Source: Microbispora corallina (GTDB taxonomy: Bacteria; Actinomycetota; Actinomycetes; Streptosporangiales; Streptosporangiaceae). Taken from it: a DNA stretch of 64,000 nt. The stretch covers positions 1-64,000 of the forward strand of contig NZ_BOOC01000021.1 of assembly GCF_016863035.1 (NCBI RefSeq). The letters run 5' to 3'. The notes below the pieces were generated by a model. That model saw only the letters and a list, made by a program, of their open reading frames with translations. It was not told the DNA's origin and searched no databases. Positions 1 through 44,200 of the stretch are shown here, in pieces. Both the position numbers and the translations under genes were made by a program. The number at the start of each line of letters is the position of its first letter. Position 1 is the stretch's first letter.

Positions 1-736
1 CCCCCCGCCGTACCGGCTCGCGCAGCGTCGGCACCTCCACGAGCACGACCGTGAGCTGCGACTCCTCCAGCCGGTGGCGGGCGCCGAGCAGGGCCGCCGT
101 GTGCAGCGCCGAACGGACGGCCGCGGACGTCGGCCGGATCGGCACGACCGGGACCCCGGCCGAGACCAGCCGCTCGGCCACGCCGTGGACGCACGTCAGG
201 GCGCCCGTCGTGACGCCCTGCCGCAGCAGCCGCTCGTGGAAGGCCGCGATCGTCCCGACCGGGCCGGGCTCGTCACGGGTGTGCACCTCGCCCGAGGGGA
301 GGTTGAGGTCGCTGTAGACCTCGTCGATCTCCGTCCGGCCCAGCACGTCGACGCTGACCCGGCGGGGGTCGATCCGGTCGTCCAGGGCCGCCTTGGCCAC
401 GGCCGCCACGAGCGCCGCGCCGCCCAGTTGCACGTGGGTGGCGGGCATCGTCAGCACGCCGGCGCGCCGGGCGAGCTCGAAGGGGACCGGGCTCGCGAAC
501 AGGCACGCGTCCACTCCCGGTCCCAAGCGGGTGACCTTGTCCGCCGCCTCCTGTTCGTCCCGGTAGGCCGCCGCGACCAGCCGGCAGGGCACCGGGGCCG
601 CCGAGTGGCCCATCAGCATCACCCGCTCGACCAGGTCGTGCGACCCCACCACGCCTATCGTGAGGTCCGGTGTCACCGTCCCCAGGCGCGACCCGCGCGG
701 AGTGTCTTCCGTGCGCTCGACCAATGTTCGTCCCAT
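1..736 (-). CDS. N-terminal part of an unrecognised, probably regulatory protein
   Basis: The frame is open from an ATG at 736 to the left edge (245 codons), so the C-terminus is missing. The visible part is soluble, with no signal peptide or membrane segment, and alternates hydrophobic strands with helices, as in TIGVVGSHDLVERVM and VSVDVLGRTEIDEVY. This suggests a Rossmann-like sensor fold. I do not recognise the family with confidence. Similar actinobacterial proteins may carry a C-terminal DNA-binding domain, but that part lies outside the window. It follows murA by 159 bases on the same strand. Confidence 0.6.
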   Translation of the reverse strand, partial: MGRTLVERTEDTPRGSRLGTVTPDLTIGVVGSHDLVERVMLMGHSAAPVPCRLVAAAYRDEQEAADKVTRLGPGVDACLFASPVPFELARRAGVLTMPATHVQLGGAALVAAVAKAALDDRIDPRRVSVDVLGRTEIDEVYSDLNLPSGEVHTRDEPGPVGTIAAFHERLLRQGVTTGALTCVHGVAERLVSAGVPVVPIRPTSAAVRSALHTAALLGARHRLEESQLTVVLVEVPTLREPVRRG

Positions 737-874
737 CCCACGTCGCCCTCGTTGTTGTGGCTTCTCTTTGGAACGATCGCTGGTTAAGGCCGTAATGTCA
801 CGCCCGGGTTTGCCGGAATACCATTCTGGCAGGTGCGGGGGAGTCCCTTATTTGTAATGTTTTCGCTGGTCAGG

Positions 875-894
875 CCGGAAAGATAGGTTTCCGG
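875..894 (-). terminator. Hairpin just after murA
   Basis: A perfect 7-bp inverted repeat (CCGGAAA / TTTCCGG) with a 6-base loop starts immediately after the murA stop codon. There is no clear T tract, so intrinsic termination is plausible but not certain. Confidence 0.45.
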
Positions 895-895
895 A

Positions 896-2173
896 CTAAC
901 CCTCGTTCAAAGTGGAAATTTCACGGACCACATCTGCGCCGAGGGCCTGCATCCGCTGGGCGAGCGCGGCGTGCCCCCGGTCGATGAGATAGCCGGAGCC
1001 GATCGTGGTCTCGCCGTCGGCGGCGAGCCCGGCCAGCACGAGGGCGATCCCCGAGCGCAGGTCGTGCGCCGTGACCTCGGTGCCGCGCAGCGGCGTCGGG
1101 CCGTGGACGACCGCCCGGCTGCCCTCGACCTCGATATTGGCGCCCATCTTGTTCAGCTCGCCGGCCAGCGCGAAGCGGCCGTCGAAGATCCGCTCGTGGA
1201 TGTAGCTGGAGCCGTCGGCCAGGCAGGCCACGGTCATCAGCGGCGACTGGAGGTCGGTGGCGAAGCCGGGGTAGGTGTCGGTGATCACGTTGATCGGCCG
1301 CAGCGGCCGGTCGCGGCGGACGTGGAGGACGGCGCCGTGGTTCTCGAACTCCACGCCCATCTGCTCCAGCTTCCAGCGCACCACGCCGAGGTGCTCCAGC
1401 GACGCGCCCACCAGATTGACCTCGCCGCCGGTGATGGCGGCGGCCATGGCGAACACGCCGGCGTCGAGGCGGTCGGGCATGACGGTGTGCTCCACCGCGG
1501 TGAGCTCGTCCACGCCCTCGACCGTGATGAACCCGGTGCCGCCGCCCTGGATGCGGGCGCCCATGCGGCTCAGCATCGAGATGACGTCGAGCACCTCCGG
1601 CTCCAGCGCGGCGTTCTCGATCACGGTCGTGCCCAGTGCGAGCGAGGCGGCCATGATGAGGTTCTCGGTGCCGGTGTGCGACGGGGTGTCGAGGTAGAGC
1701 GGGGCGCCGACGAGCCCGCCCGCCTTGATGTGGATGACGGACTCGCCCTCGTCGACCATCGCGCCGAGCCGCTTGTAGCCGAGGTAGTGGAAGTCGAGGT
1801 TGCGGCTGCCCAGGTTGCAGCCGCCGATGCCCTCGATGATCGCCTCCCCGAGCCGGTGGAGCAGGGCCGGGACGAACAGGACCGACCCGCGGAACCGCCG
1901 GGCGATCTCCGCCGGCAGCACCGGGCTCGTCAGCCGTGAGGCGTCGATGACGAGCGTGCGCTCGCTCTCATGGAACTCCACCTTCGCGCCGACGGCCTGC
2001 GCCAGCTCGACCGCCCTGCGCACGTCCTCGATCACGGGCACGTTGCGCAGCACCGTGCGGCCCTCGGCCGCCATCAGGGCCGCGCCGATCATGGGCAGTA
2101 CGGCGTTCTTCGCGCCCTGGATGAAGGCGGTTCCACGCAGCACGTTGCCACCGCGGACGCGGTAACGAACCAT
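896..2173 (-). CDS. murA: UDP-N-acetylglucosamine 1-carboxyvinyltransferase (MurA)
   Basis: MurA transfers enolpyruvate from PEP to UDP-GlcNAc, the first committed cytoplasmic step of peptidoglycan synthesis. The 425-residue product has the usual family length. The N-terminal GAKNAVLP motif places Lys22/Asn23 as in E. coli MurA. The catalytic loop GGCNLGSRN carries the active-site Cys at residue 119, so the enzyme should be fosfomycin-sensitive (family knowledge). An in-frame GTG/ATG extension to 2215 exists. The start at 2173 is preferred because AGGAG lies 8 bases upstream and the protein then begins MVRYRVRGG, as relatives do. It lies 172 bases downstream of purC. Confidence 0.96.
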   Translation of the reverse strand: MVRYRVRGGNVLRGTAFIQGAKNAVLPMIGAALMAAEGRTVLRNVPVIEDVRRAVELAQAVGAKVEFHESERTLVIDASRLTSPVLPAEIARRFRGSVLFVPALLHRLGEAIIEGIGGCNLGSRNLDFHYLGYKRLGAMVDEGESVIHIKAGGLVGAPLYLDTPSHTGTENLIMAASLALGTTVIENAALEPEVLDVISMLSRMGARIQGGGTGFITVEGVDELTAVEHTVMPDRLDAGVFAMAAAITGGEVNLVGASLEHLGVVRWKLEQMGVEFENHGAVLHVRRDRPLRPINVITDTYPGFATDLQSPLMTVACLADGSSYIHERIFDGRFALAGELNKMGANIEVEGSRAVVHGPTPLRGTEVTAHDLRSGIALVLAGLAADGETTIGSGYLIDRGHAALAQRMQALGADVVREISTLNEG

Positions 2174-2345
2174 GGATGAGACTCCTATGTCGGGGGAAGA
2201 TGTGGGGACTCGCACCCAGGCGGCGACCGATCGTCGGCGGGGTCGTCGGCCCAGCGTAGCCGCTAACCCGGGCGTTTCGCGGAGGAACTACCCGCGTGGC
2301 CGCCGAGGGAACGCGGTACTGGAGGTACTTTTGTGACTTGCGCGG

Positions 2346-3194
2346 TCAGTCCCTGAACCGCCGGCCGGTGATGCGCTCGTAGGCCTCGACGTACCGGCTC
2401 CTGGTGCGCTCGACGACCTCGTCGGGCAGGCGCGGCGGCGCCTCTCCCGAGGCCCGGTCCCATCCCGAGGCGGGGGACACCAGCCAGTCCCTGACGTACT
2501 GCTTGTCGAACGACGGCTGCGCGTGGCCGGGCTCCCACCGGTCGAGGGGCCAGAACCGGGACGAGTCGGGCGTCAGCAGCTCGTCGCCCAGCGTCAGGAC
2601 ACCCTCGGCGTCCCAGCCGATCTCGATCTTGGTGTCGGCCACGATGATGCCCCGCCCCAGCGCGATCTCCGCGCCCCGGCTGTACACCTCCAGGGTGATG
2701 CGCCGGAGCCGGTCGGCCACCTCGGCCCCGACCTCGGCCGCCACCTGCTCGAACGTCATCGGCTCGTCGTGCTCGCCCACCGGCGCCTTGGTCGACGGCG
2801 TGAAGATCGGCTCGGGCAGCCGTGAGCCGTCGGTGAGGCCGTCCGGGAGCCTCACCCCCGAGACCGCGCCCTCCCTGCGGTAGTCGACGAGCCCGGAGCC
2901 CGTCAGGTAGCCCCGGGCCACGCACTCCACCGGCACCATGCGCAGCGGACGGCACAGCACGGCCCGCCCGGCGAACTCCGCCGGCACGTCGGCCGACACC
3001 ACGTGGTTGGGGACCACGTCCTCGAGCTGCTCGAACCACCACAGCGACAGCCGCGTGAGGATCTCGCCCTTGTCGGGGATGCCGGGCTCGAGCACGTGGT
3101 CGAACGCCGAGATGCGATCGGAGGCGACCATCAGCAGCAGCCCGTCGGGCGTCTCGTACAGGTCGCGGACCTTGCCGGAGTGGAGGTGCTTCAC
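2346..3194 (-). CDS. purC: Phosphoribosylaminoimidazole-succinocarboxamide synthase (PurC)
   Basis: SAICAR synthetase condenses CAIR with aspartate using ATP, in de novo purine synthesis. The 282-residue protein opens with HSGKVRDLYE, the family N-terminal signature, and contains DTKIEIGWD and LTPDSSRFWP from the ATP/substrate sites. It starts at a GTG with GGAGG 8 bases upstream. Its purine partner purD lies on the same strand, but a LuxR-type regulator gene separates the two, which is not the usual arrangement. Confidence 0.96.
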   Translation of the reverse strand: MKHLHSGKVRDLYETPDGLLLMVASDRISAFDHVLEPGIPDKGEILTRLSLWWFEQLEDVVPNHVVSADVPAEFAGRAVLCRPLRMVPVECVARGYLTGSGLVDYRREGAVSGVRLPDGLTDGSRLPEPIFTPSTKAPVGEHDEPMTFEQVAAEVGAEVADRLRRITLEVYSRGAEIALGRGIIVADTKIEIGWDAEGVLTLGDELLTPDSSRFWPLDRWEPGHAQPSFDKQYVRDWLVSPASGWDRASGEAPPRLPDEVVERTRSRYVEAYERITGRRFRD

Positions 3195-3251
3195 CCCTCC
3201 ATCCTCCCAGCCCCCGGCCCGTCCCCCACCGCGGGTGCGGGCCGCGTACGG

Positions 3252-4340
3252 TCAGCCCGCCGACCCGATGGATCCGAGCCTGGACCGGTCGGCCACGCCG
3301 AGCTTCGTGTAGACGCGGCAGAGGTGGTTGCCGACCGTGCGGGGGGACAGCCCCAGCCACTCCGCGATCTCCCGGTTGGTCATCCCCCAGGAGGCGAGCT
3401 GGGCCACCTCCTGCTCGCGCCGGCTGAAGTCGCCGGAGGCCCGGGAGCCGCCGTTCACAGGGTGGCCGGCCGGGCGGCCGAGCCGGCGCAGCAGGTCGCG
3501 CACGACGATCGGGCCGAGGTCCTCCCGGAGCGCCGCGCGGTGGATCGGGCGGGCGAACCGCACCTGGAGCCGGGTGCCGAGGCGGTGCGCGCGCACGAGG
3601 CCGCGCCGCTCCAGCCGGTGCAGGGCCGCGGGCGAGGTCAGCCGCTCCAGCGCGTCCACGTCCACCTCGCCGGCCACCGCGAGCAGGTCGAGGGCCTCGC
3701 GCTCGCCGTCGTCGAGGTGGCCGATCTCGTCGCGCACCAGCTCGCGCACCCGGTCGCCGAGGGGGAGATCGCCGCTGAGCGTCCATCGGTCGTCCATCAG
3801 GCTCAGCCGTCCGGAGGCCAGGCCGGTCTCGACCAGCTCGCGGAGCAGCCGCATGTTCCCGGCGGCAGCCCGCCACAGCCGCTGCGCGGTCGCCCCGTCC
3901 ACCGGCCCCCGCAGCGCCGCCGCCAGGATCCGTACGGCGTGCTCCGCGGGCAGGGGGGACAGGTCCCACCGGGTGGCGAGCCCCTCGACGAGCAGCGCGG
4001 CCACCGGCCCGGGCGGTTCCGCGCCGGTGCGGGCCTCGGCGAGCAGTGTCGCCTCGCCGGAGGCGACGAGATCGTGCACCCGGCGTGCCGACGCGGGGTC
4101 GAGCAGGTACGCCCGCTCCACGACCAGGAGCAGCGGTCCCGTCGGCTCCGGCGGCAGGGACGTTCCCGGCACGGCCGCGACCGTGACCCCGCCCAGCTCG
4201 CGGACGGCCCGCCGGATGAGGGCGGTCTTGCCCACCCCCGGCTCTCCGGTGACGACCAGGCTCACGCCCGCGTGCACCGTCTCGACGATCTCCCCGATCT
4301 CGCGGGCTCTCCCGCTCATCGGCCACCGCACTCCGCTCAT
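3252..4340 (-). CDS. LuxR-family regulator with N-terminal ATPase (STAND type)
   Basis: The protein of about 362 residues has a P-loop near the N-terminus (GEPGVGKTALI, Lys38 from this start), a central NTPase/winged-helix region, and a C-terminal LuxR-type helix-turn-helix (SRREQEVAQLASWGM then TNREIAEWLGLSPRT). It is much shorter than typical LAL regulators and lacks a TPR region. Start choice is uncertain: 4430, 4340 and 4319 are all in frame. 4340 or 4319 puts the P-loop at a normal distance, and SD support is weak for both. The gene sits between purD (94 bases upstream) and purC (57 bases downstream), so it may be cotranscribed with purine genes. The ligand is unknown. Confidence 0.8.
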   Translation of the reverse strand: MSGVRWPMSGRAREIGEIVETVHAGVSLVVTGEPGVGKTALIRRAVRELGGVTVAAVPGTSLPPEPTGPLLLVVERAYLLDPASARRVHDLVASGEATLLAEARTGAEPPGPVAALLVEGLATRWDLSPLPAEHAVRILAAALRGPVDGATAQRLWRAAAGNMRLLRELVETGLASGRLSLMDDRWTLSGDLPLGDRVRELVRDEIGHLDDGEREALDLLAVAGEVDVDALERLTSPAALHRLERRGLVRAHRLGTRLQVRFARPIHRAALREDLGPIVVRDLLRRLGRPAGHPVNGGSRASGDFSRREQEVAQLASWGMTNREIAEWLGLSPRTVGNHLCRVYTKLGVADRSRLGSIGSAG

Positions 4341-4434
4341 GTCCCCGACGCTAGGCCGAGGCGGCGGCGGGGACATCGGGGCACGCCCGGCCGTCGTCTC
4401 CGGGATAACCCGGAGGAGCGGCCGTCGCACGAGG

Positions 4435-5673
<1,239 letters not shown>

Positions 5674-5895
5674 GCGTCCATTGTCGCAGCGTTCGCCACC
5701 CCCTCCTCCGCACCGGTGCCGGCCGTACGGGAAAGGGTGAGATACACATGCTCAGCCGATTTGTTCCGGTGCTTTTTGGCAAGTAGTGCATGATCCACCG
5801 CTGTCGGTGGGGGTACCCTGGAAAGGCCGCCGGACCCCGATGTGGTAAGTTAGGCGGGCTTAGCGTCGTCTCCTCGTGATTGGAGGTGGTCTGGG

Positions 5896-5997
5896 ATGAA
5901 TTCTGGTGATCCCGTCAGTACGTGCTCGCGCACGTACGTCGTGCGCACTCCCGACCACTTCGACACAGAGCCCGAGGGGCCGTTCACGCCTGCATGA
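5896..5997 (+). CDS. Putative 33-residue leader peptide upstream of corA
   Basis: An ATG at 5896 is preceded by a strong GGAGG with 8-base spacing. The frame runs 33 codons to TGA at 5997, 56 bases before the corA-type ATG. The peptide begins MNSGDPVSTCSRTYVV and ends EGPFTPA; it has no membrane segment. Codons 8 to 14 overlap a perfect 8-bp hairpin. This layout resembles translated leaders that control Mg2+ transporter genes in enterobacteria (mgtL, corL), but I know of no described actinobacterial equivalent. It is also possible that this is an independent small protein. Confidence 0.55.
   Translation: MNSGDPVSTCSRTYVVRTPDHFDTEPEGPFTPA
5918..5937 (+). promoter_or_regulatory. Perfect hairpin inside the leader ORF upstream of corA
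   Basis: GTACGTGC, loop TCGC, GCACGTAC form an uninterrupted 8-bp stem within the leader reading frame. Ribosome position on the leader could open or close it. No mutually exclusive partner helix was worked out. Confidence 0.4.
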
Positions 5998-6053
5998 AGG
6001 GGTGACATCACGTCGCGCGTGGAGCGTGCCGACTCGGGCGGGAAGGGACCGCC

Positions 6054-7187
6054 ATGCGCTCCTCGATCATCTTTCCTCGCATCAACAGGCACACCCGTGT
6101 CCTGCCCACGCGCCTGACCGCCACCGCCGCCACCGCCGCCACGGCCGCCGACGAGCCGCTCGGCCGCTGCGTGCCGCCGAGCAGTTCCCTCGTCGAGTTC
6201 GGCGCCTACGTCGCCGGCGAGAAGATCGACGCCTCGGGCATCCCCGAGGCCGTCCGCCTCGTCCGTGAGCACAACGAGACCGCGCCGATGCCCGACGCGT
6301 ACGTCTGGGTCGGCCTGCACGAGCCCGCCGCGCCCGAGGTCGAGTGGCTGGCCGAGGTGTTCGGCCTGCACCCGCTCGCCGTCGAGGACGCCATCAAGGC
6401 CCACCAGCGCCCCAAGGTCGAGCGGTACGGCGACTCGTTGTTCGTCGTGCTGAAGACCGTCGCCTTCCTCGACAACGAGGTGTCCGCCGCGACCGGCGAG
6501 ATCATCGGCACGGGCGAGATCATGGCGTTCGTCGGCGCCGACTTCGTCGTCACGGTCCGGCACGGCCGGCACTGTCCCCTCGGCGACGTCAGGGAGAAGA
6601 TCGAGGCCAAGCCGAAGCTGCTGGGCCGCGGCCCCACGGGCGTGCTGCACGCGATCGCCGACCACGTGGTGGACAAGTACCTCCAGGTCGCCGACCTCAT
6701 GCAGGCCGAGCTGGAGGAGGTCGAGGCCGCCGTCTTCGCCGAGGTCAGCTCCCGCGACATCAACCGCATCTACCAGCTCAAGCGCGAGATGCTGGAGCTC
6801 AAGCGGGCCGTCGCCCCCCTCCTCACGCCGTTCAACGCGCTCCCCCAGCGCCGCGTGATCCCCTCCGAGATGCGCGAGTACTTCCGCGACGTCGGCGACC
6901 ACCTCTCCCGGGTCTGCGAGCAGGTGCAGTCGTCCAACGAGCTGTCCGACTCGATCCTCCAGGCCGCCCTGGCGCGCTCCAACGCGCTCGCCAACGAGGA
7001 CATGCGGAAGATCTCGTCGTGGGTGGCGATCATCTCGGTCCCCACGATGATCGCCGGCATCTACGGCATGAACTTCGAGCACATGCCCGAGCTCAGGGCC
7101 GCCTACGGGTACCCCCTCGTCCTGGGCGTCATGGCGGTGGCCTGCACACTCCTCCACCGCGCCTTCCGCCGCAACGGCTGGCTCTGA
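6054..7187 (+). CDS. corA: CorA-family magnesium/cobalt transporter
   Basis: This is a 377-residue inner-membrane divalent cation channel. The long cytoplasmic N-terminal domain is followed by the CorA stalk helix (about residues 200 to 300) and two C-terminal transmembrane helices. The first ends in the universal YGMN motif, then the short loop EHMPEL and the second helix. The C-terminus is short and basic (RRNGWL), as in the family. ATG at 6054 has GGGA upstream. It probably belongs to one transcript with the small ORF ending at 5997. Substrate choice between Mg2+, Co2+ and Ni2+ cannot be read from the sequence. Confidence 0.92.
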   Translation: MRSSIIFPRINRHTRVLPTRLTATAATAATAADEPLGRCVPPSSSLVEFGAYVAGEKIDASGIPEAVRLVREHNETAPMPDAYVWVGLHEPAAPEVEWLAEVFGLHPLAVEDAIKAHQRPKVERYGDSLFVVLKTVAFLDNEVSAATGEIIGTGEIMAFVGADFVVTVRHGRHCPLGDVREKIEAKPKLLGRGPTGVLHAIADHVVDKYLQVADLMQAELEEVEAAVFAEVSSRDINRIYQLKREMLELKRAVAPLLTPFNALPQRRVIPSEMREYFRDVGDHLSRVCEQVQSSNELSDSILQAALARSNALANEDMRKISSWVAIISVPTMIAGIYGMNFEHMPELRAAYGYPLVLGVMAVACTLLHRAFRRNGWL

Positions 7188-7205
7188 CCGCCTTCCCGGG
7201 CCCTG

Positions 7206-7838
7206 TCAGCCGGAGGCAGGCCGGGAGCCGAGGGCGCCGAGGCCGCGGAGGGTGAGGTCGACGGCGCGGCGACCGGCCTCCCAGACGCGCTCGGGGGGCT
7301 CGCCGCGCTCGATGCTGGTCAGGGCGGCCAGGTGGCCCGCGCCCGCGACGGCCCCGACGGCCGCCGCGGCCTCGGTGAGGTCGATCTCGTCCGCGTACGC
7401 CTGGTGGAGCGCCTCCGCCAGGCGGCGCTGGGTGTCGAAGAGCAGGTGGAGCCCGCGGGCCTGCAAGGCGGGCACGGACATCACGAGCCGGTGGCGCAGC
7501 GGGAACAGGTCGGCGGTCAGGTCCGTGTCCAGGAAGGCCGACCGGAGGCTCTGGTGGGCCAGGCGCATCAGGAGGCCGGCCACCGGCTCGCCCGGCCGCC
7601 GGTCGGCGACCACCTTGAGAGCCTCGTCGGCGCGGTGCCGGTGGTCGAAGAAGACGACGTCCTCCTTGCTCGTGAAGTAGCTGAAGAACGTCCGCGTCGA
7701 GACGTCGACGGCCGAGGCGATCTCGGCGATCGTCGTCTCCTCGTACCCCTGCTCCTGGAACAGGCGCAGGGACGCCTCGATCAGCGCCTGCCGGGTGCGC
7801 AGTTTCTTGCGTTCGCGCAGGCCAGGGCCGTCCGTCAT
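7206..7838 (-). CDS. TetR-family repressor, divergent from a P450 gene
   Basis: The 210-residue product starts MTDGPGLRERKK. Its N-terminal helix-turn-helix is typical of TetR: RTRQALIEASLRLFQEQGY, then TTIAEIASAVDVSTRTFFSYF. The C-terminal two thirds is an all-helical ligand-binding domain. An upstream in-frame extension to 7943 would run through the operator region and is rejected. The gene is divergent from the P450/ferredoxin operon with a 122-base spacer holding an AT-rich palindrome, so it very likely represses both. The inducer is unknown. Confidence 0.9.
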   Translation of the reverse strand: MTDGPGLRERKKLRTRQALIEASLRLFQEQGYEETTIAEIASAVDVSTRTFFSYFTSKEDVVFFDHRHRADEALKVVADRRPGEPVAGLLMRLAHQSLRSAFLDTDLTADLFPLRHRLVMSVPALQARGLHLLFDTQRRLAEALHQAYADEIDLTEAAAAVGAVAGAGHLAALTSIERGEPPERVWEAGRRAVDLTLRGLGALGSRPASG

Positions 7839-7861
7839 GTCCAAGACTCTATGACATTCGC

Positions 7862-7875
7862 AATGAACTTTCATT
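7862..7875. promoter_or_regulatory. Probable TetR operator between tetR and P450 genes
   Basis: AATGAA-CT-TTCATT is a perfect 6-bp inverted repeat in an AT-rich patch, 23 bases upstream of the tetR start and 85 bases upstream of the P450 start. Position and symmetry suit autoregulation of the divergent genes. Confidence 0.5.
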
Positions 7876-7960
7876 CGTTGCAAATCGACACCCGATGCTG
7901 TTATGTGAAGGGAGCAGGCGACTCGACAGCGGACCGTTTCCACCCTTACAGGAGCGTGTC

Positions 7961-9160
7961 ATGACCGAGGCCACACCGCGGATCGCGACCTTCCCCGTCA
8001 AGCGGGAACGCGCCTTCGACCCACCCGACCTGCTCCGCCGGTGGCAGGAGGAGGCGCCGATCCGGCGCATGACGTACGCCGACGGGCACGAAGGCTGGGT
8101 CGTCACCGGGTACGCCGCGGCCCGCGCGATCCTGGCCGACCCCCGGTTCAGTACCCGTCCCGAGCTCCTGCACTCCCCGATCCCCCAGCGGAACCTCCGG
8201 CTGCAGAACATGAACGTGCCTCCGGGGTTCTTCATCCGCATGGACCCCCCCGACCACACGCGCTACCGGAAGCTGCTCACCGGCCAGTTCACCGTACGGC
8301 GGATGAAGCTCCTGGAGCCGAGGGTCGAGGAGATCGCGAACGCCCGGCTCGACGAGATGGAACGCCAGGGGCCGCCGGCCGAACTGGTGTCGGCGTTCGC
8401 GCTGCCCATCCCGTCCCTGGTGATCTGTGAGCTGCTCGGCGTGCCGTACGACGACAGGGCGAAGTTCCAGCGGGACTCGGCCGTCATGCTGAACCTGGAC
8501 TCGACCCTCGACGAGGTCACGGCCGCCATGGCCGACCTGCTGACCTACCTGCACAACCTGGTCATGCGGAAGACCGCCGACCCGGAGGACGACCTGCTGA
8601 GCGGCCTGATCGCCGGGGGAGAGCTGACGGACCGGGAGCTCGCCGGCATCGCCCTGCTGCTGCTCGTGGCGGGCCACGAGACGACGGCGAACATGCTCGG
8701 CCTCGGCACGTTCGCCCTGCTGTCCAACCCGCCGCAGATGGCCGCCCTGCGCGAGGACCCCACGCTGATCGACAACGCGGTGGAGGAGCTGATGCGCTAC
8801 CTCAGCATCGTCCACCTCGGTCCCATCCGGGCGGCGCTGGAGGACGTCGAGATCGACGGCCACCTCATCCGGGCGGGCGAGTCGGTCACGCTGGCCATCG
8901 CCGCGGCCAACCGGGACCCGGAGCGGTTCGGCGGGGGCGACATGCTCGACGTCTCCCGGTCGGCCCACGGGCACCTCGCGTTCGGGCACGGCGTCCACCA
9001 GTGCCTCGGGCAGCAGCTCGCCCGGACCGAGATGCGGATCGCGTACGCCGCGCTGCTGCGCCGCCTCCCCGGCCTGCGGCTGGCCGTGCCGCCCGGCGAG
9101 GTGCCGATGCGGTCCAATATGGCGATCTACGGAGTGCACCGCCTGCCGGTCGCCTGGTGA
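7961..9160 (+). CDS. Cytochrome P450
   Basis: This is a 399-residue soluble bacterial class I P450 monooxygenase. Motifs seen: I-helix AGHETTAN for oxygen activation, K-helix EELMRY with the ExxR pair, and the heme loop FGHGVHQCLGQQLA with the cysteine ligand at residue 348. The start at 7961 follows AGGAG by 6 bases. A ferredoxin gene begins 37 bases after the stop and would deliver electrons. The layout resembles CYP105/CYP107-type xenobiotic or secondary-metabolite P450s of actinomycetes, but family and substrate cannot be assigned by eye. Confidence 0.95.
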   Translation: MTEATPRIATFPVKRERAFDPPDLLRRWQEEAPIRRMTYADGHEGWVVTGYAAARAILADPRFSTRPELLHSPIPQRNLRLQNMNVPPGFFIRMDPPDHTRYRKLLTGQFTVRRMKLLEPRVEEIANARLDEMERQGPPAELVSAFALPIPSLVICELLGVPYDDRAKFQRDSAVMLNLDSTLDEVTAAMADLLTYLHNLVMRKTADPEDDLLSGLIAGGELTDRELAGIALLLLVAGHETTANMLGLGTFALLSNPPQMAALREDPTLIDNAVEELMRYLSIVHLGPIRAALEDVEIDGHLIRAGESVTLAIAAANRDPERFGGGDMLDVSRSAHGHLAFGHGVHQCLGQQLARTEMRIAYAALLRRLPGLRLAVPPGEVPMRSNMAIYGVHRLPVAW

Positions 9161-15448: not shown

Positions 15449-16220
15449 GGTGCTCAGCGTACGGGCGGCCCGGCGATGGAAGGTCGCCGAGTACGGCGCC
15501 GGCGTCACCACCAGTCAGATCGCGCGGGCCGCCGGCATCGGGGAGGGCACCATCTTCCGCGTCTTCGCCGACAAGGACGAGCTGATGGGCGCCTGCGCGG
15601 CCGAGGCGATGAATCCCGACCACGTCCTGCGGGAGCTGACCTCGATCTCCGTCGACGACCCCCTTCCCGCGCGGCTCGTGCAGGCCGCCGAGGCCCTGGG
15701 CGCCCATCTGCGGCGGATGGGGACCGTGCTCGGCGCGCTGCACGCCTCCGGCGTCCGGCGGGAGCGGTCCGCGGGCGAACGGCCTTCCGCAGGTGAGGAG
15801 CCCTCCGCAGGCGACAGGCCTTCCATGGGTGAGGGGCCTTCCGCGGGAGGGCGGCCTTCCGGCGGCGGTCGCGAGCGGTCGTTGCGCGCCGTCCGCGAGG
15901 CGGTGGCCGAGCTCGTGGAGCCCGACCGGGACGCCCTCCGGATGGATCCGGAGCGGGTCGCGACGTACTTCCTGGGCCTGCTGTTCGCCCGGCTCCCCCT
16001 GACCGGAGACGAGCCGGAGCCGACGCCGGAGGAGTTCGTCGACGTCCTCCTGCACGGCGTCCTCGCCGCCGGCCGGGGGCCGCGTGACCGTCGGCCTGAA
16101 CCGCACCATCGTCCCCGCCGCCGACAACGGCGCGGCGGCCCGCTTCCTCGCCTCGATCATGGGTCGGGAGGTGTCGCCGGCCTGACGGTTACCCGCGGTA
16201 AAGGGCGGGCTTCGGTTTAG
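15447..16220 (+). CDS. TetR-family regulator with repeat insert and abnormal C-terminus
   Basis: The DNA-binding half is clear: VTTSQIARAAGIGEGTIFRVFADKDEL is the TetR recognition segment. The normal first helix is poorly conserved (LSVRAARRWKVAEYGAG), and the frame begins at the very ATG that overlaps the pyrE start. Residues about 106 to 141 are a PSAG-type repeat insert, specified by six 18-bp tandem units. After TPEEFVDVLLHGVLAAG the frame turns Arg-rich because it reads out of phase through a glyoxalase remnant and stops at 16220. The gene may be functional with a frayed tail, or in decay. Confidence 0.6.
   Translation: MVLSVRAARRWKVAEYGAGVTTSQIARAAGIGEGTIFRVFADKDELMGACAAEAMNPDHVLRELTSISVDDPLPARLVQAAEALGAHLRRMGTVLGALHASGVRRERSAGERPSAGEEPSAGDRPSMGEGPSAGGRPSGGGRERSLRAVREAVAELVEPDRDALRMDPERVATYFLGLLFARLPLTGDEPEPTPEEFVDVLLHGVLAAGRGPRDRRPEPHHRPRRRQRRGGPLPRLDHGSGGVAGLTVTRGKGRASV
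15763..15870 (+). repeat. Six tandem 18-bp units inside the TetR gene
   Basis: The units follow the pattern GGCCTTCCGCAGGTGAGG with 2 to 6 changes each. The 18-bp period keeps the frame and encodes variants of a P-S-A-G-[ED]-x hexapeptide between two helices of the ligand-binding domain. Confidence 0.8.
16084..16185 (+). pseudogene. N-terminal remnant of a glyoxalase/VOC protein
   Basis: In the frame starting GTG at 16084, 33 codons read VTVGLNRTIVPAADNG, then AAARFLASIMG and a TGA. This is the typical first beta-alpha unit of a VOC (glyoxalase-fold) enzyme, and nothing after the stop continues the fold. It lies inside the 3' end of the TetR frame. Inference: a TetR-VOC gene pair was truncated by deletion. 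Confidence 0.55.
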
Positions 16221-16236
16221 CCAGGACGTGGATTGC

Positions 16237-16265
16237 GGAATGTAACGCGGTGCAACTCATCGTAA
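16237..16265 (+). promoter_or_regulatory. Possible ECF-type promoter of the sigma fusion gene
   Basis: GGAAT at 16237 and TCGTAA at 16260 are separated by 18 bases, and the ATG follows 14 bases later. GGAAT resembles ECF -35 elements, which would allow autoregulation. This is a weak prediction by eye. Confidence 0.25.
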
Positions 16266-16278
16266 TCGCGAGGTCGCA

Positions 16279-18735
16279 ATGCGTCGAGAAGCCCGTCGGA
16301 CCGACATGGAACTGATCGAGGCCGTGAGGAGAGGAGACTCCTCGGCCTACGGTCTGCTCTACCAGCGCCACGCGGCCGCCGCCCGGTCCCTGGCCCGGCA
16401 GCTCGTGCAGGGGGACGACGAGGCCGAGGACCTGCTCGTCGAGACGTTCGCGCGGGTGCTGGAGATCGTCCGGGAGGGCGGGGGCCCGCCGGCGGCGTTC
16501 CGGCCGTACCTGCTGACGGCCCTGCGGCGGTACGCCGCGACCGGCCGGGTCGACGTCGCGGAGCCCTGGACGGTCCACGTGCACCCCGATCTCGCGGGGC
16601 TGGAGCGCTCGCCGCTCGCCCGGGCCTACCTCTCGCTTCCGGAGCGCTTCCGGATGGTCCTGTGGCACGCCGAGGTCGAGGGCGCGGCGCCCGAGGAGAT
16701 GGCCCCGCTGCTCGGCATGTCGGCGGGCGGCGTGGGCGGGCTCGCCCGGGCGGCCCGAGAGGCGCTGCGCCACGCGTACGTGCGGATCCACCTGGAGGGC
16801 GGGCCGGGCCGGGAGTGCCTCGGGGTGCTGCCGAAGATCTCCCGTCACGTCGAGGGCGGGCTGCCCCCGGCCGAGGCGCGGCTGGTGGACGAGCACGTCG
16901 CCGAGTGCATCGACTGCCGTTCGGTGCTCCTGGAGCTGGCCGACGTCACCCGTGGCCTGCGGGTGGTCGTCGGCCAGCTCATCGCGGGCCCGGTCGTCGA
17001 CGACTACCTCGCCGACCTCGCCCGGCAGGGCGGCGCCGCCCCGGGCGGTCTGGTCGCGGCGGCCCGCACCGCCCTGGCCGGACGGCCCCGCCTCTCGGAG
17101 CTGGCCGGCCTCCTGCGCCCGGCGCGGCCCGAGCACGCCCGTCCGAGCGAGCGGAGCAAAATGGGCTCGTCCTGGGCCGGCGACCTGCTGCGCGGGGTCC
17201 CCACCCCCGTGCGGGCCGTCCTGGCCGGTGTGCTGGCGGCGACGGTGGCGACGGCGGCGTTCCTCCTGGTGGCCCGGCCGATGACGGTGCGCCCGGTCGC
17301 CCGGCAGGCCGCGCTCCCCGCGTCCTCGCGGACGGAGCCGACCCTGGTGCCGGGGCCGTCCCCCGCCTCGCCCGCGCCCACCGCGGACGCCGGCGTCGAT
17401 CGGGACGCCGCCGGACGCTCAGGACGCCGGCGGATCGAGACGCGCGCGCCGCGCCGCGCCGAGCCGTCCGTGCCGCGGGAACGCACGCGGAAGGCGGGCG
17501 CGGCCGACCTCGTCGCGAGCATCGACCCCCTCGGCGCGCTGCTGCGGGCCCAGTCCGGCCTCATCGCGGTCCGCCTGCGCAACGCGGGCGCCGTGCGCAG
17601 CGGCGACGTCGAGGCCGCCGTGACGCTGCCTCGGGGCGTCACGCTCGTGTCCTCGGGCCGCCGCCGGTCCGGGGCCCGTACGGCCGACGGCTGGGCCTGC
17701 CGTACGGGCGGCCGGGTCGTGCGCTGCGGGAGGGGGGCGCTGGCGCCGGGGGAGGTGACCGCGATCTTCCTTCGGGTCGCCGTGGCGGCCGACGCGCCCA
17801 TCGGGCGGGGGCCGGGGGTGGCGGTGCGGTCGGAGGGCGTGCGGGCGGCGGCGACCGCGGTGTCGGGCGTGCGCGCCTCCGGCGCCGCGGCCCGGTTCGC
17901 CGCCGACGGCCGGGTGGTCACGCGGGTCGTCGGCAACACGCTGGTCAGCGCGGCCGTCCCGCCGAGCGGATGCGCCCCGGGCGACGCCGGGCCCGCCGAG
18001 GACGTGGGCGTCGCGATCCCCGTCGATCTCGACGACGACGACACGACGGAGAGTTCGAGCTGCGCCCGGCTCGATCTGCCGGCCGGCGGCAGGGTCCTGT
18101 GGGCCGGCCTCTACTGGGCGGCCGGCGGGCACGACGTCGACCCGGGAGGCGAGATCCGGCTCCGGCCGCCGGGCGCGGCCGAGTACGGCGTCGTCCGCGC
18201 GGCCGAGATCGCCCGCCGCGACCTGCCGGACGGGTCGGGCTACCAGGCGTTCGCGGACGTCACCTCGCTCGTCCGGGCGGCCGGTCCCGGCTCCTGGTGG
18301 GCCGCCGACCCCACCACCCTGGACGGGGCCGTGCGGCACGCCGGCTGGAGCCTCGTGGTCATGGCGACCGACGATCGGCAGCCGTACACGCGGGCCGTCG
18401 TGCTGGACGCCGCGGCCGTGGTGGACGAGTCCGGCGGGTCGCTGCGGATCCCGCTCGACGGCCTCGCCCCCGTCTCTGCGCCGGCCAGGATCGACCTCGT
18501 GGTCTGGAACGGCCAGGGCGTCAAGGGAGGGGTGGTCACGTTGAGCGACCGGTCCCGGCCCGGCGGCGGGGAGCGGCGGCGCGGGGGCGCGCTCGACCTC
18601 ACCGCCGGGGGCACGGCGGTCGCGGCCGACACCATCCACGCGCTGCTCGGACCGCATCCCGTCCTGCGGCTCACGACCAGGCGGAACTCCTTGTTCTTCG
18701 GGGTCGCGGTGGTCAGCGCCCGTACGTGGTCCTGA
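16279..18735 (+). CDS. ECF sigma factor fused to zinc-finger, membrane anchor and surface domain
   Basis: The 818-residue polypeptide has sigma region 2 at about 10 to 80 (AVRRGDSSAYGLLYQRH; EDLLVETFARVL) and region 4 at about 105 to 165 (LPERFRMVLWHAEVEG). An anti-sigma-like zinc motif HVAECIDC follows at about 210, then one transmembrane helix at 312 to 333. The outside part has a DUF11-like beta domain (about 414 to 525) and a C-terminal domain with LWAGLYWAAGG (607 on), GYQAFADVTSLV and GWSLVVMA, as in actinobacterial surface proteins. Topology predicts sigma inside and the sensor or adhesin outside. ATG at 16279 has GAGGT upstream. Long C-terminal ECF extensions are known in Actinobacteria; the specific group was not determined. 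Confidence 0.85.
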   Translation: MRREARRTDMELIEAVRRGDSSAYGLLYQRHAAAARSLARQLVQGDDEAEDLLVETFARVLEIVREGGGPPAAFRPYLLTALRRYAATGRVDVAEPWTVHVHPDLAGLERSPLARAYLSLPERFRMVLWHAEVEGAAPEEMAPLLGMSAGGVGGLARAAREALRHAYVRIHLEGGPGRECLGVLPKISRHVEGGLPPAEARLVDEHVAECIDCRSVLLELADVTRGLRVVVGQLIAGPVVDDYLADLARQGGAAPGGLVAAARTALAGRPRLSELAGLLRPARPEHARPSERSKMGSSWAGDLLRGVPTPVRAVLAGVLAATVATAAFLLVARPMTVRPVARQAALPASSRTEPTLVPGPSPASPAPTADAGVDRDAAGRSGRRRIETRAPRRAEPSVPRERTRKAGAADLVASIDPLGALLRAQSGLIAVRLRNAGAVRSGDVEAAVTLPRGVTLVSSGRRRSGARTADGWACRTGGRVVRCGRGALAPGEVTAIFLRVAVAADAPIGRGPGVAVRSEGVRAAATAVSGVRASGAAARFAADGRVVTRVVGNTLVSAAVPPSGCAPGDAGPAEDVGVAIPVDLDDDDTTESSSCARLDLPAGGRVLWAGLYWAAGGHDVDPGGEIRLRPPGAAEYGVVRAAEIARRDLPDGSGYQAFADVTSLVRAAGPGSWWAADPTTLDGAVRHAGWSLVVMATDDRQPYTRAVVLDAAAVVDESGGSLRIPLDGLAPVSAPARIDLVVWNGQGVKGGVVTLSDRSRPGGGERRRGGALDLTAGGTAVAADTIHALLGPHPVLRLTTRRNSLFFGVAVVSARTWS

Positions 18736-18916: not shown

Positions 18917-20176
18917 GTGGATCGCTGCGCGCTGTTCGTTGACGCCGGCTACGTGCTGGCGGACGGCGCAATGGCCGTACACGGCACCCGCCATCGCGAA
19001 GCCGTCGCCTGGGACTACCCCGGCCTGCTGCAGCTCCTGACGAACCTGTCGCGGGAGCGTACGGGCCTGCCGCTGCTGCGGTGCTACTGGTACGAGGCGA
19101 CCGTCGAGGGCCGCCGCACCCCCGAGCACGACGTGCTGGCCGACATCCCCGGGCTGAAGCTCCGCCTGGCCCGCATCCGGCCCGGCCGCCGCGAGGGCGT
19201 CGACGCGCAGGTGCACCGCGACCTGATGACGCTGGCCCGCAACAACGCGGTGTGCGACGCGGTCGTGGTGAGCGGCGACGAGGACCTCGCCCAGGTGGTC
19301 TGCGACGCCCAGGACCTCGGCATCCGGGTGACGGTCGTGCAGATCGCCGGCGACGGCGCCTGGTCGTCCTCCCGGACGCTCCGGCAGGAGTGCGACGACC
19401 TCATCGAGATGGCCGGCGGCCACCTCCGGCCGTACGTGACGATGGTGACCACCCAGGACCACGGCCTGAGCATCGGGAACGGGCAGCACCACCAGCAGTC
19501 CGCGGGCAACGGCCAGTCGCGGTCGAACGGCGTGGTGCCGCTGGCCAACGGGTCGCACGGCGCCGGGCGCTCCTCGGCGGCCCACGCGCGCCCGACGCCT
19601 CCGGCCCTGCCCGCGCAGCCGTCCACGACGTCGTACTCGGCGTACGGTCAGGAGCCGCCGCCCGCGGCCCCGCCGCAGCCGGCCCCCCAGCCTCCTGCCC
19701 AGCCCGCCCCGCAGGCGCAGGCCCAGCCGCCGGTGGCTCCGCCGCCTCCGCCCGCCGTGTCCCCGCCCGCCGTGCCCCCGGCCCCGCCCGTCCAGCCGCC
19801 GCCCACCCAGCCGGCTCCCACGGCCTCCCCGTACTCGTCCTCGGGCACGGGGGCGTACACGCCGTCTCAGCTCGGGCCGTACACCGGGCCGCAGCCGGCC
19901 CCCGTGCCGGTGCAGAACGCCGGCGGCACGACCACGCTGGCCGAAGCGGTGAAGGCCGCGCACAAGGAGGGCCACGACTTCGGCGACTCGGTGGCCAGGG
20001 ACGCCCCGGCGCTGTGGCTGGAGGCCGTGCTCGCCCGCAAGCCCCGCATGCCCTCCGACCTGGAGGCCCGCCTCCTCCAGGGCTCGTCGCTGCCGATCGA
20101 CTTCCTGCTGCACGACGAGGTCCGCCACGCCCTCCGCCGCGGCTTCTGGGACGCCCTCGAACGCGCGCGGCGCTGA
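18917..20176 (+). CDS. NYN-domain (LabA/PIN-like) protein with Pro-rich linker
   Basis: The 419-residue protein has an N-terminal NYN domain of the PIN-like ribonuclease superfamily (residues 1 to about 165). Acidic positions are Asp9 (LFVDAGY), Asp96 (EGVDAQVHRDL) and Asp121/123 (VVSGDEDLAQVV), the expected metal-binding set. A Gln/Asn/Ser then Pro/Ala-rich linker covers about 180 to 325. A helical C-terminal domain of about 85 residues ends in RGFWDALERARR. An RNA-processing role is inferred from the fold only. The GTG start has GGAAGG upstream. Confidence 0.82.
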   Translation: MDRCALFVDAGYVLADGAMAVHGTRHREAVAWDYPGLLQLLTNLSRERTGLPLLRCYWYEATVEGRRTPEHDVLADIPGLKLRLARIRPGRREGVDAQVHRDLMTLARNNAVCDAVVVSGDEDLAQVVCDAQDLGIRVTVVQIAGDGAWSSSRTLRQECDDLIEMAGGHLRPYVTMVTTQDHGLSIGNGQHHQQSAGNGQSRSNGVVPLANGSHGAGRSSAAHARPTPPALPAQPSTTSYSAYGQEPPPAAPPQPAPQPPAQPAPQAQAQPPVAPPPPPAVSPPAVPPAPPVQPPPTQPAPTASPYSSSGTGAYTPSQLGPYTGPQPAPVPVQNAGGTTTLAEAVKAAHKEGHDFGDSVARDAPALWLEAVLARKPRMPSDLEARLLQGSSLPIDFLLHDEVRHALRRGFWDALERARR

Positions 20177-41279: not shown

Positions 41280-44200
41280 ATGCCGCGTCCCACAGGTATC
41301 CCACGTCTCCTCAGGAACGGCGTGGCGGCGGTCCTCGCGGTCTCCTCACTCACCGCGTGGGGGGCCGTCGAGCCTGGTCCGGCCCGTGCCTCGGCATACC
41401 CGGCCTTTGCCGTGTCCCTTCCCGCCGCCGGCTCGCCCGAACCCACCGGAGTGACCGACTCCACCGGCGTGACCGACCCCGTGCCGGCCCTGCCCTCCCG
41501 TACGGGAGAGCGGGTGGCGGTGCCGCGTGAGCCGTCGCTCGCCGCGCGGCCGGTGGAGGAGCGTCCGGTCGGCCCGGAGCCGCCCCCGGTAACCATCCCT
41601 GCGGGTCCGGTGTTCATGGACGGCGTCACGGCCGAGGTCCGGGCCCGCCTGTCGGCCGCCGGCCTGCCGTCGAGGGGCGGCGCGGCTCCCCGGCCCGAGG
41701 CGCTGCTGCCCGCCACGGGCGCGGCGGGCCGTCTCGGCGTCACCCGCCCCCCGGACGGCGAGGTGGCGCGGGCGGCGGAGACCGTCGGCGGGCTGGGCGG
41801 CCCCGACCTGACCAGGCTCTACCGGTCGCGGCCGGAGGGCGTGCCGGTGCTCACCTACCGGCTGTGCGCCGAGTCGCCGTCGCTCCCGGTCGCCTGCTCC
41901 GCGCCGCGGCCGCTCCTGCACCCGGCCGCCGCCGACGTGACCGGCGACGGGACGCCCGACGTCCTGGCCGATCTCGTGCCGGCCCGCGACCCGGGCGACG
42001 TGCTGCGGGCGGCGGACGCCCTCGCCGGTCACCTGCCGCTCGGCGGCTCGCCGGGACGCCGCGACCGCCTCGCGGCGACGGCGGCGGCGGGACTGGGCCT
42101 GCTCACCCGGCGGCTCCCGGGCGGGGACACCGCCGGGCGCGACCTGCGGGCCCAGGTCTGGGCGGAGTACTCCCTGGGCGACCGGCTGATCCGCGTCGGC
42201 GTCGACGGCTACCGCCGCGGGGCCTCGCTGTCCGACCTCGACTGGGGGCTCTACACCGTCACCCGCTCCTCGTCGGGGGCGATCGACGTGCGGGCCGACG
42301 TCCGGCATCGCGGGCCGGGGGCGTCGATCGCGACGGTCGCGGGGACGGCGGGAGCGGACGGCGGCCGGTCGGCCGGGGCGTCCTCGCTGGTCAGCCTCCG
42401 CCAGGCCCCGGTGCCGGAGACCCTGTCCGTCCACGCCCGGGTGGAGACCGCGACGTCCGCCGGCACGCTCACCGTCACCGTCTCGCGCCCGTCCGCGCTG
42501 GACGCGCTGGCGCTGTCCGGGGACTCCCACCGGTCCCGGGTCACCCGCCTCCTCGCCGACAGGGTCACCGGGACGGCGACGGCCCGGCTGACCCGGGCGG
42601 CGGACGGGGCGGCCGGCCTCAGCCTCGACTCCGGCGCCGCGATCGGCACGGCGGAGTTCGGCGCCTACGCCTTCGGCGGCGGCCGGCTCGACGGCGCGGC
42701 GGGGATCTCGGTCACCCGGCTGCCGGGACGCCTGCGGGCGCGCTACGAGCCGGGCCCGCGATCACGCCTCACCGTGGACACCGGATCTCCCACCGGCACC
42801 GGTGTGCGGATGGTCTACGCCGACCGCTCGGGGGCCGGCACTGCCTTCCGGGCCGCCCTCACGGACGTCCCCGGCCACCTCGAGCTCGTCCAGCGGGACG
42901 CCCGGCTCGCCCTGACCGCGTCCGGCGCCCTCGGCGGCCTCGACGCCGTCCTCCAGCGCGGCGGGGGAGCCGTGTCGTCGCCGCCCGGCGCCCACGTCAC
43001 CGTGATCAAGGACGGCTCGCGGCTCGGCGTCTCCGGGCGCCTGTCGAACCTCGACGCGCTCGACGTCGCGTACGGCACCCGGCCGCACGCCGCGCTCCGG
43101 CTCGCCGCGGGCGGGCGGCCGTTCCTCGGGGCGGCGTCCGTGGACGGCCGGCACCTCGCGCGTATCGAGATCTCCGACACCCCGGCCGAGGTGGAGGTGG
43201 ACGTCGACCCGGCGGCCCGGAAGGCCGTCTACCGCGCGAGCGGCACGATCGACCGGATCCGCGCGGCCTACGCCGACACCACGGCAGGCCCGACCATCGA
43301 CGGCACGGTCGAGGGGGTGCGGTCCTCGGTCGCGGCGTCCTGGGACATGGGCGGTCGGACCGTGGCCGATGTGGCGACCCCCGCCGGCCTGCGGGCCATG
43401 TCGCTCTACGTCAACAGGCGCCATGTGACCTCCGTCGGCCCCCGGGGGCGGGACGACCTCTTCGTCACGGCCGAGGGGATCGGCGCCCACGTGGGCGTCG
43501 CGGCCGACCCGGCCGCCGGCGCCTTCACGTGGACCGCCGACCGGCCGGTCGCCTCGCTGTCCGCCTTCGCCCGGACGGGCGGGGTCCGGGTCGCGGCCCG
43601 GGCCACCGGGGTGCCCGCCCGCTTCGACGCCACCTGGGCCGGCGGGACGTACGCCGTCCGCGGCGTGTCGGGGCCCTTCGGCTCGTTGGCGATCGCGGTG
43701 ACCGACCACGACGGGGCGACGGCTCCCACCGGCCCGCACGTGGCGGCGCACCTCGGCCCGGGACGGTTCGACGCGAGCCTGCGTCTCGACGGCCTGTCGA
43801 GCCTGCGGCTGAGCGACGGCGCGGGCGGACTCGACGCCGACGTGCGGGCCGCCCGCCAGACCGTCGCGCTCGACGTGGACGCCCTCCTGCCCGGAGACCT
43901 GCGCGCCGGGGCGCTGGGCACGCTCGGGCCGGTCCCCGGACACCTGCGGATCACCGCGGCCCCCGGCGGGGTCGTCGGCTACGAGACCGACGCGCCCATG
44001 GACCTGCGGGCGGACGTCTGGCTCGGCAAGGCCGCCGCCGTCGAGCGGGCCCCCGCCGTCCCCGCCGTGGCGAACGGCCTCGCCCTCGCCGACGCACGCT
44101 GCGCGGCGGGGTCCCGGGGCTGCGCCGCGGACGGCGGCCCGTTCTGCCGTACGGGTGGCTGCTTCGGGCTGCGCGGGACCGTGCGCCTGTCTCTTCCGGC

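Follow-up and report, generated by a model that had tools for sequence, protein, structure and literature searches.

A sigma factor fused to an anti-sigma domain, a membrane helix and an adhesin-type exterior in Microbispora corallina

Introduction

Why would a bacterial sigma factor carry, in the same chain, the exterior of a surface protein? The question is raised by one gene in a stretch of 64,000 nucleotides of Microbispora corallina DNA (contig NZ_BOOC01000021.1, positions 1 to 64,000; hereafter the window). The gene encodes an extracytoplasmic function (ECF)-like sigma factor, a zinc-binding anti-sigma domain, a predicted membrane helix and an exterior composed of a DUF11-like immunoglobulin-like (Ig) domain and a distal head. 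Here we describe the architecture, distribution and relatives of this fusion and discuss whether it may act as a self-inhibited sigma factor that is held at the membrane and released by proteolysis upon a cue from outside.

Domain architecture of the fusion protein

The first-pass annotation of the locus had read an ECF sigma factor, an anti-sigma HxxxCxxC motif, a membrane helix and about 480 exterior residues as one polypeptide. This observation is confirmed: the domain matches follow one another in a single 818-residue frame (Table 1), whose codon-position GC contents are 0.80/0.60/0.95. The HxxxCxxC motif is formed by H206, C210 and C213, and 487 residues follow the helix, all of which would be exterior in the predicted orientation with the N-terminus inside.

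Table 1. Features of the fusion gene and of its upstream region, in positions of the window.
Feature	Positions	Strand	Basis
Whole fusion gene, 818 residues	16279..18735	+	ATG start, stop-free frame
ECF-like sigma module, residues 1-172, regions 2 and 4	16279..16794	+	Pfam, PDB sequence matches, Foldseek
Zinc anti-sigma domain, residues 176-232, C180-x25-H206-x3-C210-x2-C213	16804..16974	+	zf-HC2, pattern in rows
Predicted single transmembrane helix, residues 313-331	17215..17271	+	hydropathy; model has helix 309-328
Outer low-complexity stalk, residues 332-408	17272..17502	+	length very variable in relatives
DUF11-like Ig domain, residues 409-534	17503..17880	+	hhalign to DUF11 repeats; beta strands in models
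Head domain, residues 536-818, LWAGLYW/YQAFADVT/AGWSLVV	17884..18732	+	hhalign to heads of secreted proteins; weak DUF3344 matches in relatives
ECF-type promoter-like element, TGCGGAAT-N19-CGTAAT, 12 nt before ATG	16234..16266	+	upstream alignment
Second conserved block, GTAAAG...CGGTTTAGCCA.GAC (GTAAAG...CGGTTTA)	16198..16227	+	28-region consensus, 7-region alignment

The N-terminal module matches Sigma70_r2 (PF04542) at residues 27-86 with 27.1 bits, above the Pfam cut-off of 24. At E<=10, region 2 was matched in 7/7 orthologues and region 4 in six of the seven; in two relatives the region 2 score is slightly under the cut-off (L001, 22.3 bits; L003, 23.4 bits). Both regions had been annotated, and region 2 stands on its Pfam score, whereas region 4 scores below its cut-off in the window protein and is placed tentatively, by alignment to solved sigma factors. 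Residues 1-179 align over regions 2 and 4 with solved ECF sigma factors, such as E. coli sigma-E (E = 1.9e-7), and match M. tuberculosis SigE (E = 1.2e-6). The NCBIfam sigma models among the matches listed all scored under their cut-offs (sigma70-ECF, TIGR02937, 29.6 versus 42.9 bits); since the TIGR02937 cut-off is one for giving names, and since the region 2 match and the PDB alignments stand, we still file the protein as an ECF-like sigma factor. AlphaFold2 modelled the full chain poorly (pLDDT 49.9, pTM 0.32). With this low-confidence full-length model as a query, Foldseek retrieved AlgU, SigE and sigma-E at ranks 12-36 (entries 8z6g, 9m9e and 1or7 at ranks 12-30), behind beta-rich proteins, with a probability of 1.00 and TM-scores by target of only 0.32-0.37, which makes the ECF sigma fold a tentative assignment.

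The domain that follows matches zf-HC2 at residues 183-214 (24.4 bits, cut-off 22.2) and has the Hx3Cx2C signature of class I zinc anti-sigma domains. The longer pattern C-x25-H-x3-C-x2-C is present in 47/47 rows, a set that includes the window protein, the identical pair L003/L048 and four rows picked partly for HxxxCxxC. Further along the chain, the best hydrophobic stretch (residues 313-331) has a Kyte-Doolittle (KD) value of 2.4, and the runner-up, at 1.43, lies within the exterior. A hydrophobic stretch between the anti-sigma and Ig domains was found in all 57 complete sequences of the family (best KD 1.49-2.94, median 2.32). In the same sequences it is followed by an outer linker of 47-397 residues, which in the AlphaFold2 model of the window protein is of low confidence and without predicted structure.

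Conservation and distribution of the fusion

The fusion lies in one frame at 5/5 related loci, four from Planotetraspora and one from Microbispora oryzae, and it is also present in Nonomuraea gerenzanensis. The N. gerenzanensis record (L006, 11.85 Mb) bears the name plasmid I; it probably represents the chromosome. Within the order, 72 of 121 genomes and 22 of 34 genera are matched by a profile of the exterior, a few of these matches being weak.

Two larger sets of loci were compared. Forty promoter-chosen loci were taken by eye from an order-wide scan for the upstream element (window-like spacer or known sigma gene), so that the presence of the element is here a matter of selection; another 20 loci were chosen by the exterior. 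All modules lie in one frame at 55/60 of these loci, with two frame breaks and three loci cut by contig or fetch edges. Of the promoter-chosen loci, 39/40 have the complete fusion, the frame of L065 running up to the edge of the fetched sequence, and the frame of L070 is interrupted within the Ig domain; among the exterior-chosen loci 16/20 have one frame, L137, L138 and L150 are cut by edges and L136 has a frame break. Split homologues with a frameshift, which the first-pass annotation had named as a finding that would speak against a fusion, are thus not the rule (one break in 40 and one in 20). Since 55 of the 60 loci keep all modules in one frame, we reject a frameshift artefact of a GC-rich genome. 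Separate Ig and head genes, suggested by differing open-frame lengths in several genomes, were dropped as well because the two parts share a frame at 20/20 loci; a genome with the Ig and head parts on two contigs (G036) lies outside these 20.

Mean pairwise identity among the 57 complete sequences, the window protein included, is 61.8% for the sigma module, 54.0% for the anti-sigma domain, 49.3% for the head and 46.5% for the Ig domain. The outer and inner linkers reach 30.0 and 38.6%, with a column fill of 22 and 13%, respectively. The underlying set holds 58 sequences (57 complete) and excludes L136, L137, L138, L150 and the duplicate L048 (identical to L003). By these measures the modules are constrained and the linkers are not. 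In the phylogenetic tree all 59 orthologue rows are united in a single clade (support 97/88), apart from relatives in Arthrobacter and Streptomyces, and long branches were flagged.

The invariant zinc ligands bear on an alternative that we consider unlikely, namely, a cytoplasmic switch with an RsrA-like zinc site that would sense redox or thiol stress, the exterior being a wall anchor only. The four-ligand pattern in 47/47 rows is compatible with a cytoplasmic redox role, and its spacing presumably matches that of RsrA; the resemblance of the upstream element to SigR-type promoters also speaks for this alternative. However, the constraint on the exterior (46.5 and 49.3% identity) would be needless for an inert anchor. 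In addition, according to the available parts of one report, zinc motifs occur in about 48% of membrane-bound anti-sigma factors and have a structural role in RsiW (PMC7406223).

Origin of the exterior domains

No Pfam family, DUF11 (PF01345) included, matched the exterior in 7/7 orthologues at E<=10. In contrast, a profile of the Ig part aligned with true DUF11 repeats at an hhalign probability of 95.8 (E = 6.7e-9, 85 columns), and control comparisons (swapped pairs, ricin) gave probabilities of 0.4 or less. The annotated DUF11-like label therefore fails by Pfam and holds by profile comparison. Two cysteines of the Ig domain, C474 and C483, are invariant in 7/7 orthologues.

The head had been annotated, from strings such as LWAGLYW, as a domain otherwise seen in actinobacterial surface proteins. 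It proved to be a real domain, found as the N-terminus of secreted DUF11-repeat proteins: the head profile aligned with their N-terminal heads at a probability of 100 (E = 8.7e-45, 284 columns; hhalign). The secreted set consists of proteins from two other Actinomycetota (L103, L105), Thermus (L010) and Deinococcus (L011), and DUF11 scores above the Pfam cut-off in all four. By profile homology, the exterior domains of the fusion are thus members of a secreted, adhesin-like family. Their arrangement differs: in the four secreted proteins the head precedes the DUF11 repeats and no sigma or anti-sigma part was seen, whereas in the window protein it is C-terminal and follows one DUF11-like domain. 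DUF3344 (PF11824) has no match in the window protein and matches the heads of the orthologue L154 and of Thermus L010 with 14.9 and 18.0 bits, respectively (cut-off 27.2). On this sequence evidence, the head and DUF3344 are distantly related.

A carbohydrate-binding module was matched neither in the window protein (Pfam; NCBIfam among the matches listed, 25 of 29, E<=1) nor in the seven orthologues (Pfam, E<=10). The model of the exterior by itself is weak (pLDDT 60.2, pTM 0.60), and among the PDB matches listed a structure search gave TM-scores of 0.12-0.23 by query length; given the weak model and the low scores, we claim no fold past all-beta. A search of the exterior sequence against solved structures gave three matches, all with E of 0.75 or more.

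In L136-L142, L145-L148, L150 and L151 an insertion of about 105-155 residues interrupts the head some 25 residues from its start. With tblastn, 10 plasmid records matched the head and one the Ig part. The exact WAGLYW motif, searched as DNA, occurs in 3 of 396 genomes of the phylum, M. corallina included.

Relatives with other exteriors

Related sigma factors were detected by tblastn in plasmid records of Streptomyces and Arthrobacter. Both Streptomyces proteins scanned (2/2) have a ricin lectin exterior above the Pfam cut-off, and these ricin-lectin proteins are 36-38% identical to the window protein over the sigma and anti-sigma region. The two Streptomyces proteins scanned lack a zf-HC2 match in Pfam but have the C...HxxxCxxC pattern, and the anti-sigma profile matches one of three Streptomyces proteins. 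Judging by sequence, those with ricin lectin may belong to ECF53/ECF48. The Arthrobacter relative matches zf-HC2 above the cut-off and has a sub-threshold Big_6 match in its exterior. Taken together, these sequences suggest one sigma/anti-sigma cassette with interchangeable sensors.

In Arthrobacter alpinus (L007, positions 1-8720) the gene of the fused sigma factor stands directly behind a gene for a SpaA-type pilin and one for a class C sortase, and another sigma gene lies nearby. One of the Streptomyces relatives has a gene that adjoins one for a sortase-dependent surface protein.

The variety of exteriors also bears on the view that the exterior does not sense at all, the fusion merely keeping sigma and anti-sigma in a 1:1 ratio, with activity set by turnover of the entire chain. 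Such a role would be consistent with the one-frame fusion at 55/60 loci (two frame breaks, three loci cut) and with linkers that vary freely. However, fixed stoichiometry leaves unexplained both the two conserved domains of secreted type and the ricin lectin that substitutes for them in Streptomyces, and we regard this alternative as very unlikely.

The upstream promoter-like element

Ahead of the fusion gene, the first-pass annotation had pointed to a GGAAT/TCGTAA site. The element (Table 1) was aligned in 7/7 upstream regions, those of the window and of six relatives found by protein. The form GGAAT-N19/20-CGTAAT, 12 nt before the ATG, is found in the window's clade and in Nonomuraea. A consensus was built from 28 of 42 promoter-chosen upstream regions, filtered on spacer and ATG position; the distance to the ATG is 12 nt in 41/43 rows and 6 nt in the other two, nearly all rows having been chosen by the element. 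Within the genus, the element is exact ahead of the gene in 15/15 genomes. An order-wide strict scan gave matches in 71/297 genomes, and a sigma gene stands behind the site in 17 of the 30 loci L014-L043. We take GGAAT...CGTAAT to resemble SigR-type promoters. The element is a candidate ECF-type promoter, and the sigma factor that would read it is putative.

Proposed mechanism and points against it

We propose that the fusion is a one-protein transmembrane signalling system. The anti-sigma domain, which follows the ECF sigma factor immediately in the chain, would keep it inactive in the cytoplasm, and the single helix would anchor the chain with its N-terminus in and its C-terminus out. Outside, the flexible stalk and the DUF11-like Ig domain would carry the distal head, which is like that of the secreted, fibrillar-adhesin-like DUF11-repeat proteins. 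Engagement or disturbance of the head by a cue from the cell wall or from beyond it would most likely trigger site-1 and then intramembrane cleavage, upon which the anti-sigma piece would be degraded and RNA polymerase would be guided by the freed sigma factor to its targets. For the window's clade, these probably include the gene's own GGAAT/CGTAAT promoter, which would amount to autoregulation.

To the domain order, the conserved fusion, the zinc-ligand pattern, the one main helix, the homology of the exterior and the lineage-limited element, this proposal adds the topology, self-inhibition, cue, cleavage, autoregulation and regulon, which we infer. An adhesive or wall signal and proteolytic release had already been suggested by the first-pass annotation. 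Both would follow by analogy with IutY, for which proteolysis has been shown, and with SCO4117 of ECF52, for which it has been proposed. On balance we lean, by a modest measure, towards a self-inhibited, membrane-held sigma factor that is released by proteolysis on an outside cue.

A Notch-like plan is also conceivable, albeit improbable. The head would touch a surface, a nearby hypha or a polymer of the wall, and pulling or binding would expose the stalk to proteolysis and thereby free the transcription factor of the same chain. The stalk, whose length (47-397 residues) differs greatly between species whereas head and sigma are conserved, would set the reach of the sensor. Stalk length has reportedly been proposed to set reach in periscope adhesins.

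A number of observations weigh against release of a membrane-held sigma factor. No experiment on this protein was found in the open-access literature searched, and neither a protease nor a ligand was identified. The helix is weak (KD under 1.6) in three homologues, and in some the runner-up stretch has a KD as high as 1.88, so that a single helix is not certain in every homologue. The inner (cytoplasmic) linker ranges from 32 to 580 residues across the 57 complete sequences, a length that the proposal leaves unexplained. In the window protein, Sigma70_r4_2 (PF08281) matches residues 114-163 with 14.2 bits, below the cut-off of 25.7. About 11 residues of region 2, presumably of region 2.4, are missing in 25/59 orthologue rows, which constitute the window's clade (support 100/98).

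The promoter-like element adds to these points. In the 8.36 Mb genome of M. corallina it has one strict match, that of the gene itself, and for this reason no regulon can be predicted. Within the genus, 3/15 genomes (G078, G101, G141) have one further strict match each, and with one mismatch and a fixed spacer the 15 genomes yield five extra matches versus three in a reversed control. None of 17 exterior-chosen loci has the element, either in the strict or in a looser GGAA...CGTAA form; by eye, near versions ending in GTAATCG are present in L149 and L155 and none in 14 of the 17 (L154 unread). The element is therefore regarded as a lineage-limited one of ECF type: in the window's clade and in Nonomuraea the annotated GGAAT/TCGTAA site is conserved upstream of the gene, and it does not extend to these family members. 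As a separate observation, the extra GCGGAAT...CGTAAT matches in G101 and G141 (L030, L037) resemble each other, have a similar spacer and precede an open frame of 446 residues by about 161 nt, which may be a second target or a chance occurrence.

The result for the 17 loci slightly weakens the best explanation and slightly strengthens a rival, namely, decay of the sigma part, by which the protein would now be mainly a surface protein anchored in the membrane. The low score of region 4 (14.2 versus 25.7 bits), the shortened region 2 in the window's clade and an element that occurs once in its own genome and not family-wide are all in line with decay. On the other hand, sigma is the most conserved module (61.8%, versus 46.5 and 49.3% for the two exterior domains). 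The shortened clade also retains the element at 12 nt, at element-chosen loci as well as in relatives found by protein. Nonomuraea retains the 11 or so residues of region 2, yet its upstream element is the same as in the shortened clade; the residues would then be dispensable, unless the promoter is served by a different sigma factor. We consider decay of the sigma part quite unlikely.

Neighbouring genes

The gene downstream of the fusion (18917-20176), NYN-domain-like by eye, adjoins it in 6/6 relatives for which the flank was read. Upstream, a 33-residue open frame at 16084-16185 is perhaps a gene remnant; we take it to resemble the start of a VOC/glyoxalase-type protein. Elsewhere in the window, a 1443-residue open frame (41280-45611) has a signal-peptide-like start.

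Comparison with known systems and significance

According to the available parts of a 2022 review, ECF48, ECF52 and ECF53 are actinobacterial sigma factors with a fused zinc anti-sigma domain and membrane helices, for which proteolytic activation is expected, and IutY of Pseudomonas putida (ECF243), cut by Prc and RseP, is the only fused case with proteolytic activation shown (PMC8999054). Compared by description, members of ECF53/ECF48 share with the window protein the zinc anti-sigma domain fused C-terminally and have one to two membrane helices (PMC8999054). IutY is similar in joining a sigma factor and a membrane anti-sigma factor in one chain. It differs in serving Gram-negative cell-surface siderophore signalling, and those parts of the review mention no adhesin-type exterior for it (PMC8999054).

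SCO4117 of Streptomyces coelicolor (ECF52) is here compared by description only, from the available parts of its report (PMC5826349). Like the window protein, it unites a sigma factor, a zinc finger, a membrane region, a linker of low complexity and an exterior module within a single chain, and the ECF52 features of a fused zinc finger, a membrane helix and a long extracellular extension are all present here under the predicted topology. Proteolytic release has been proposed for SCO4117, together with possible autoregulation (PMC5826349). However, the C-terminal part of SCO4117 is a carbohydrate-binding module (smart00776) preceded by a proline-rich linker (PMC5826349), whereas the window protein has the DUF11-like Ig domain and the DUF3344-like head. 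The upstream motifs differ as well, CSGYN-17bp-SRHA (putative) in SCO4117 versus GGAAT-N19-CGTAAT here.

As for the exterior, DUF11 has been described as a stalk domain, and a DUF3344-like N-terminal domain forms cluster 23 of predicted fibrillar adhesins, with ambiguous function (PMC9210967). The window protein resembles the cluster 23 adhesins in pairing a stalk with a distal DUF3344-like domain. In contrast to it, no signalling part is mentioned for these adhesins in the available parts of the source (PMC9210967), and heads of the window family score under the DUF3344 cut-off where they match.

Since the fusion plan is that of an already described class (ECF48, ECF52, ECF53, IutY), the novelty of the protein is, more narrowly than had been implied, confined to its exterior, where the adhesin-type stalk and head differ. 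This pairing of exterior domains on a sigma factor was not found in the open-access literature searched, mostly at the level of titles and abstracts. The exterior appears to be a new version of a known design, with an adhesin-type stalk and head and no carbohydrate-binding module. Fused sigma/anti-sigma receptors are poorly characterised, and the family described here is widespread in one actinobacterial order, with an adhesin-type exterior in place of a sugar-binding one. If the proposed mechanism is true, a single protein would link surface contact directly to transcription, and the fusion would offer a tractable route to what DUF11 and DUF3344-like domains recognise.

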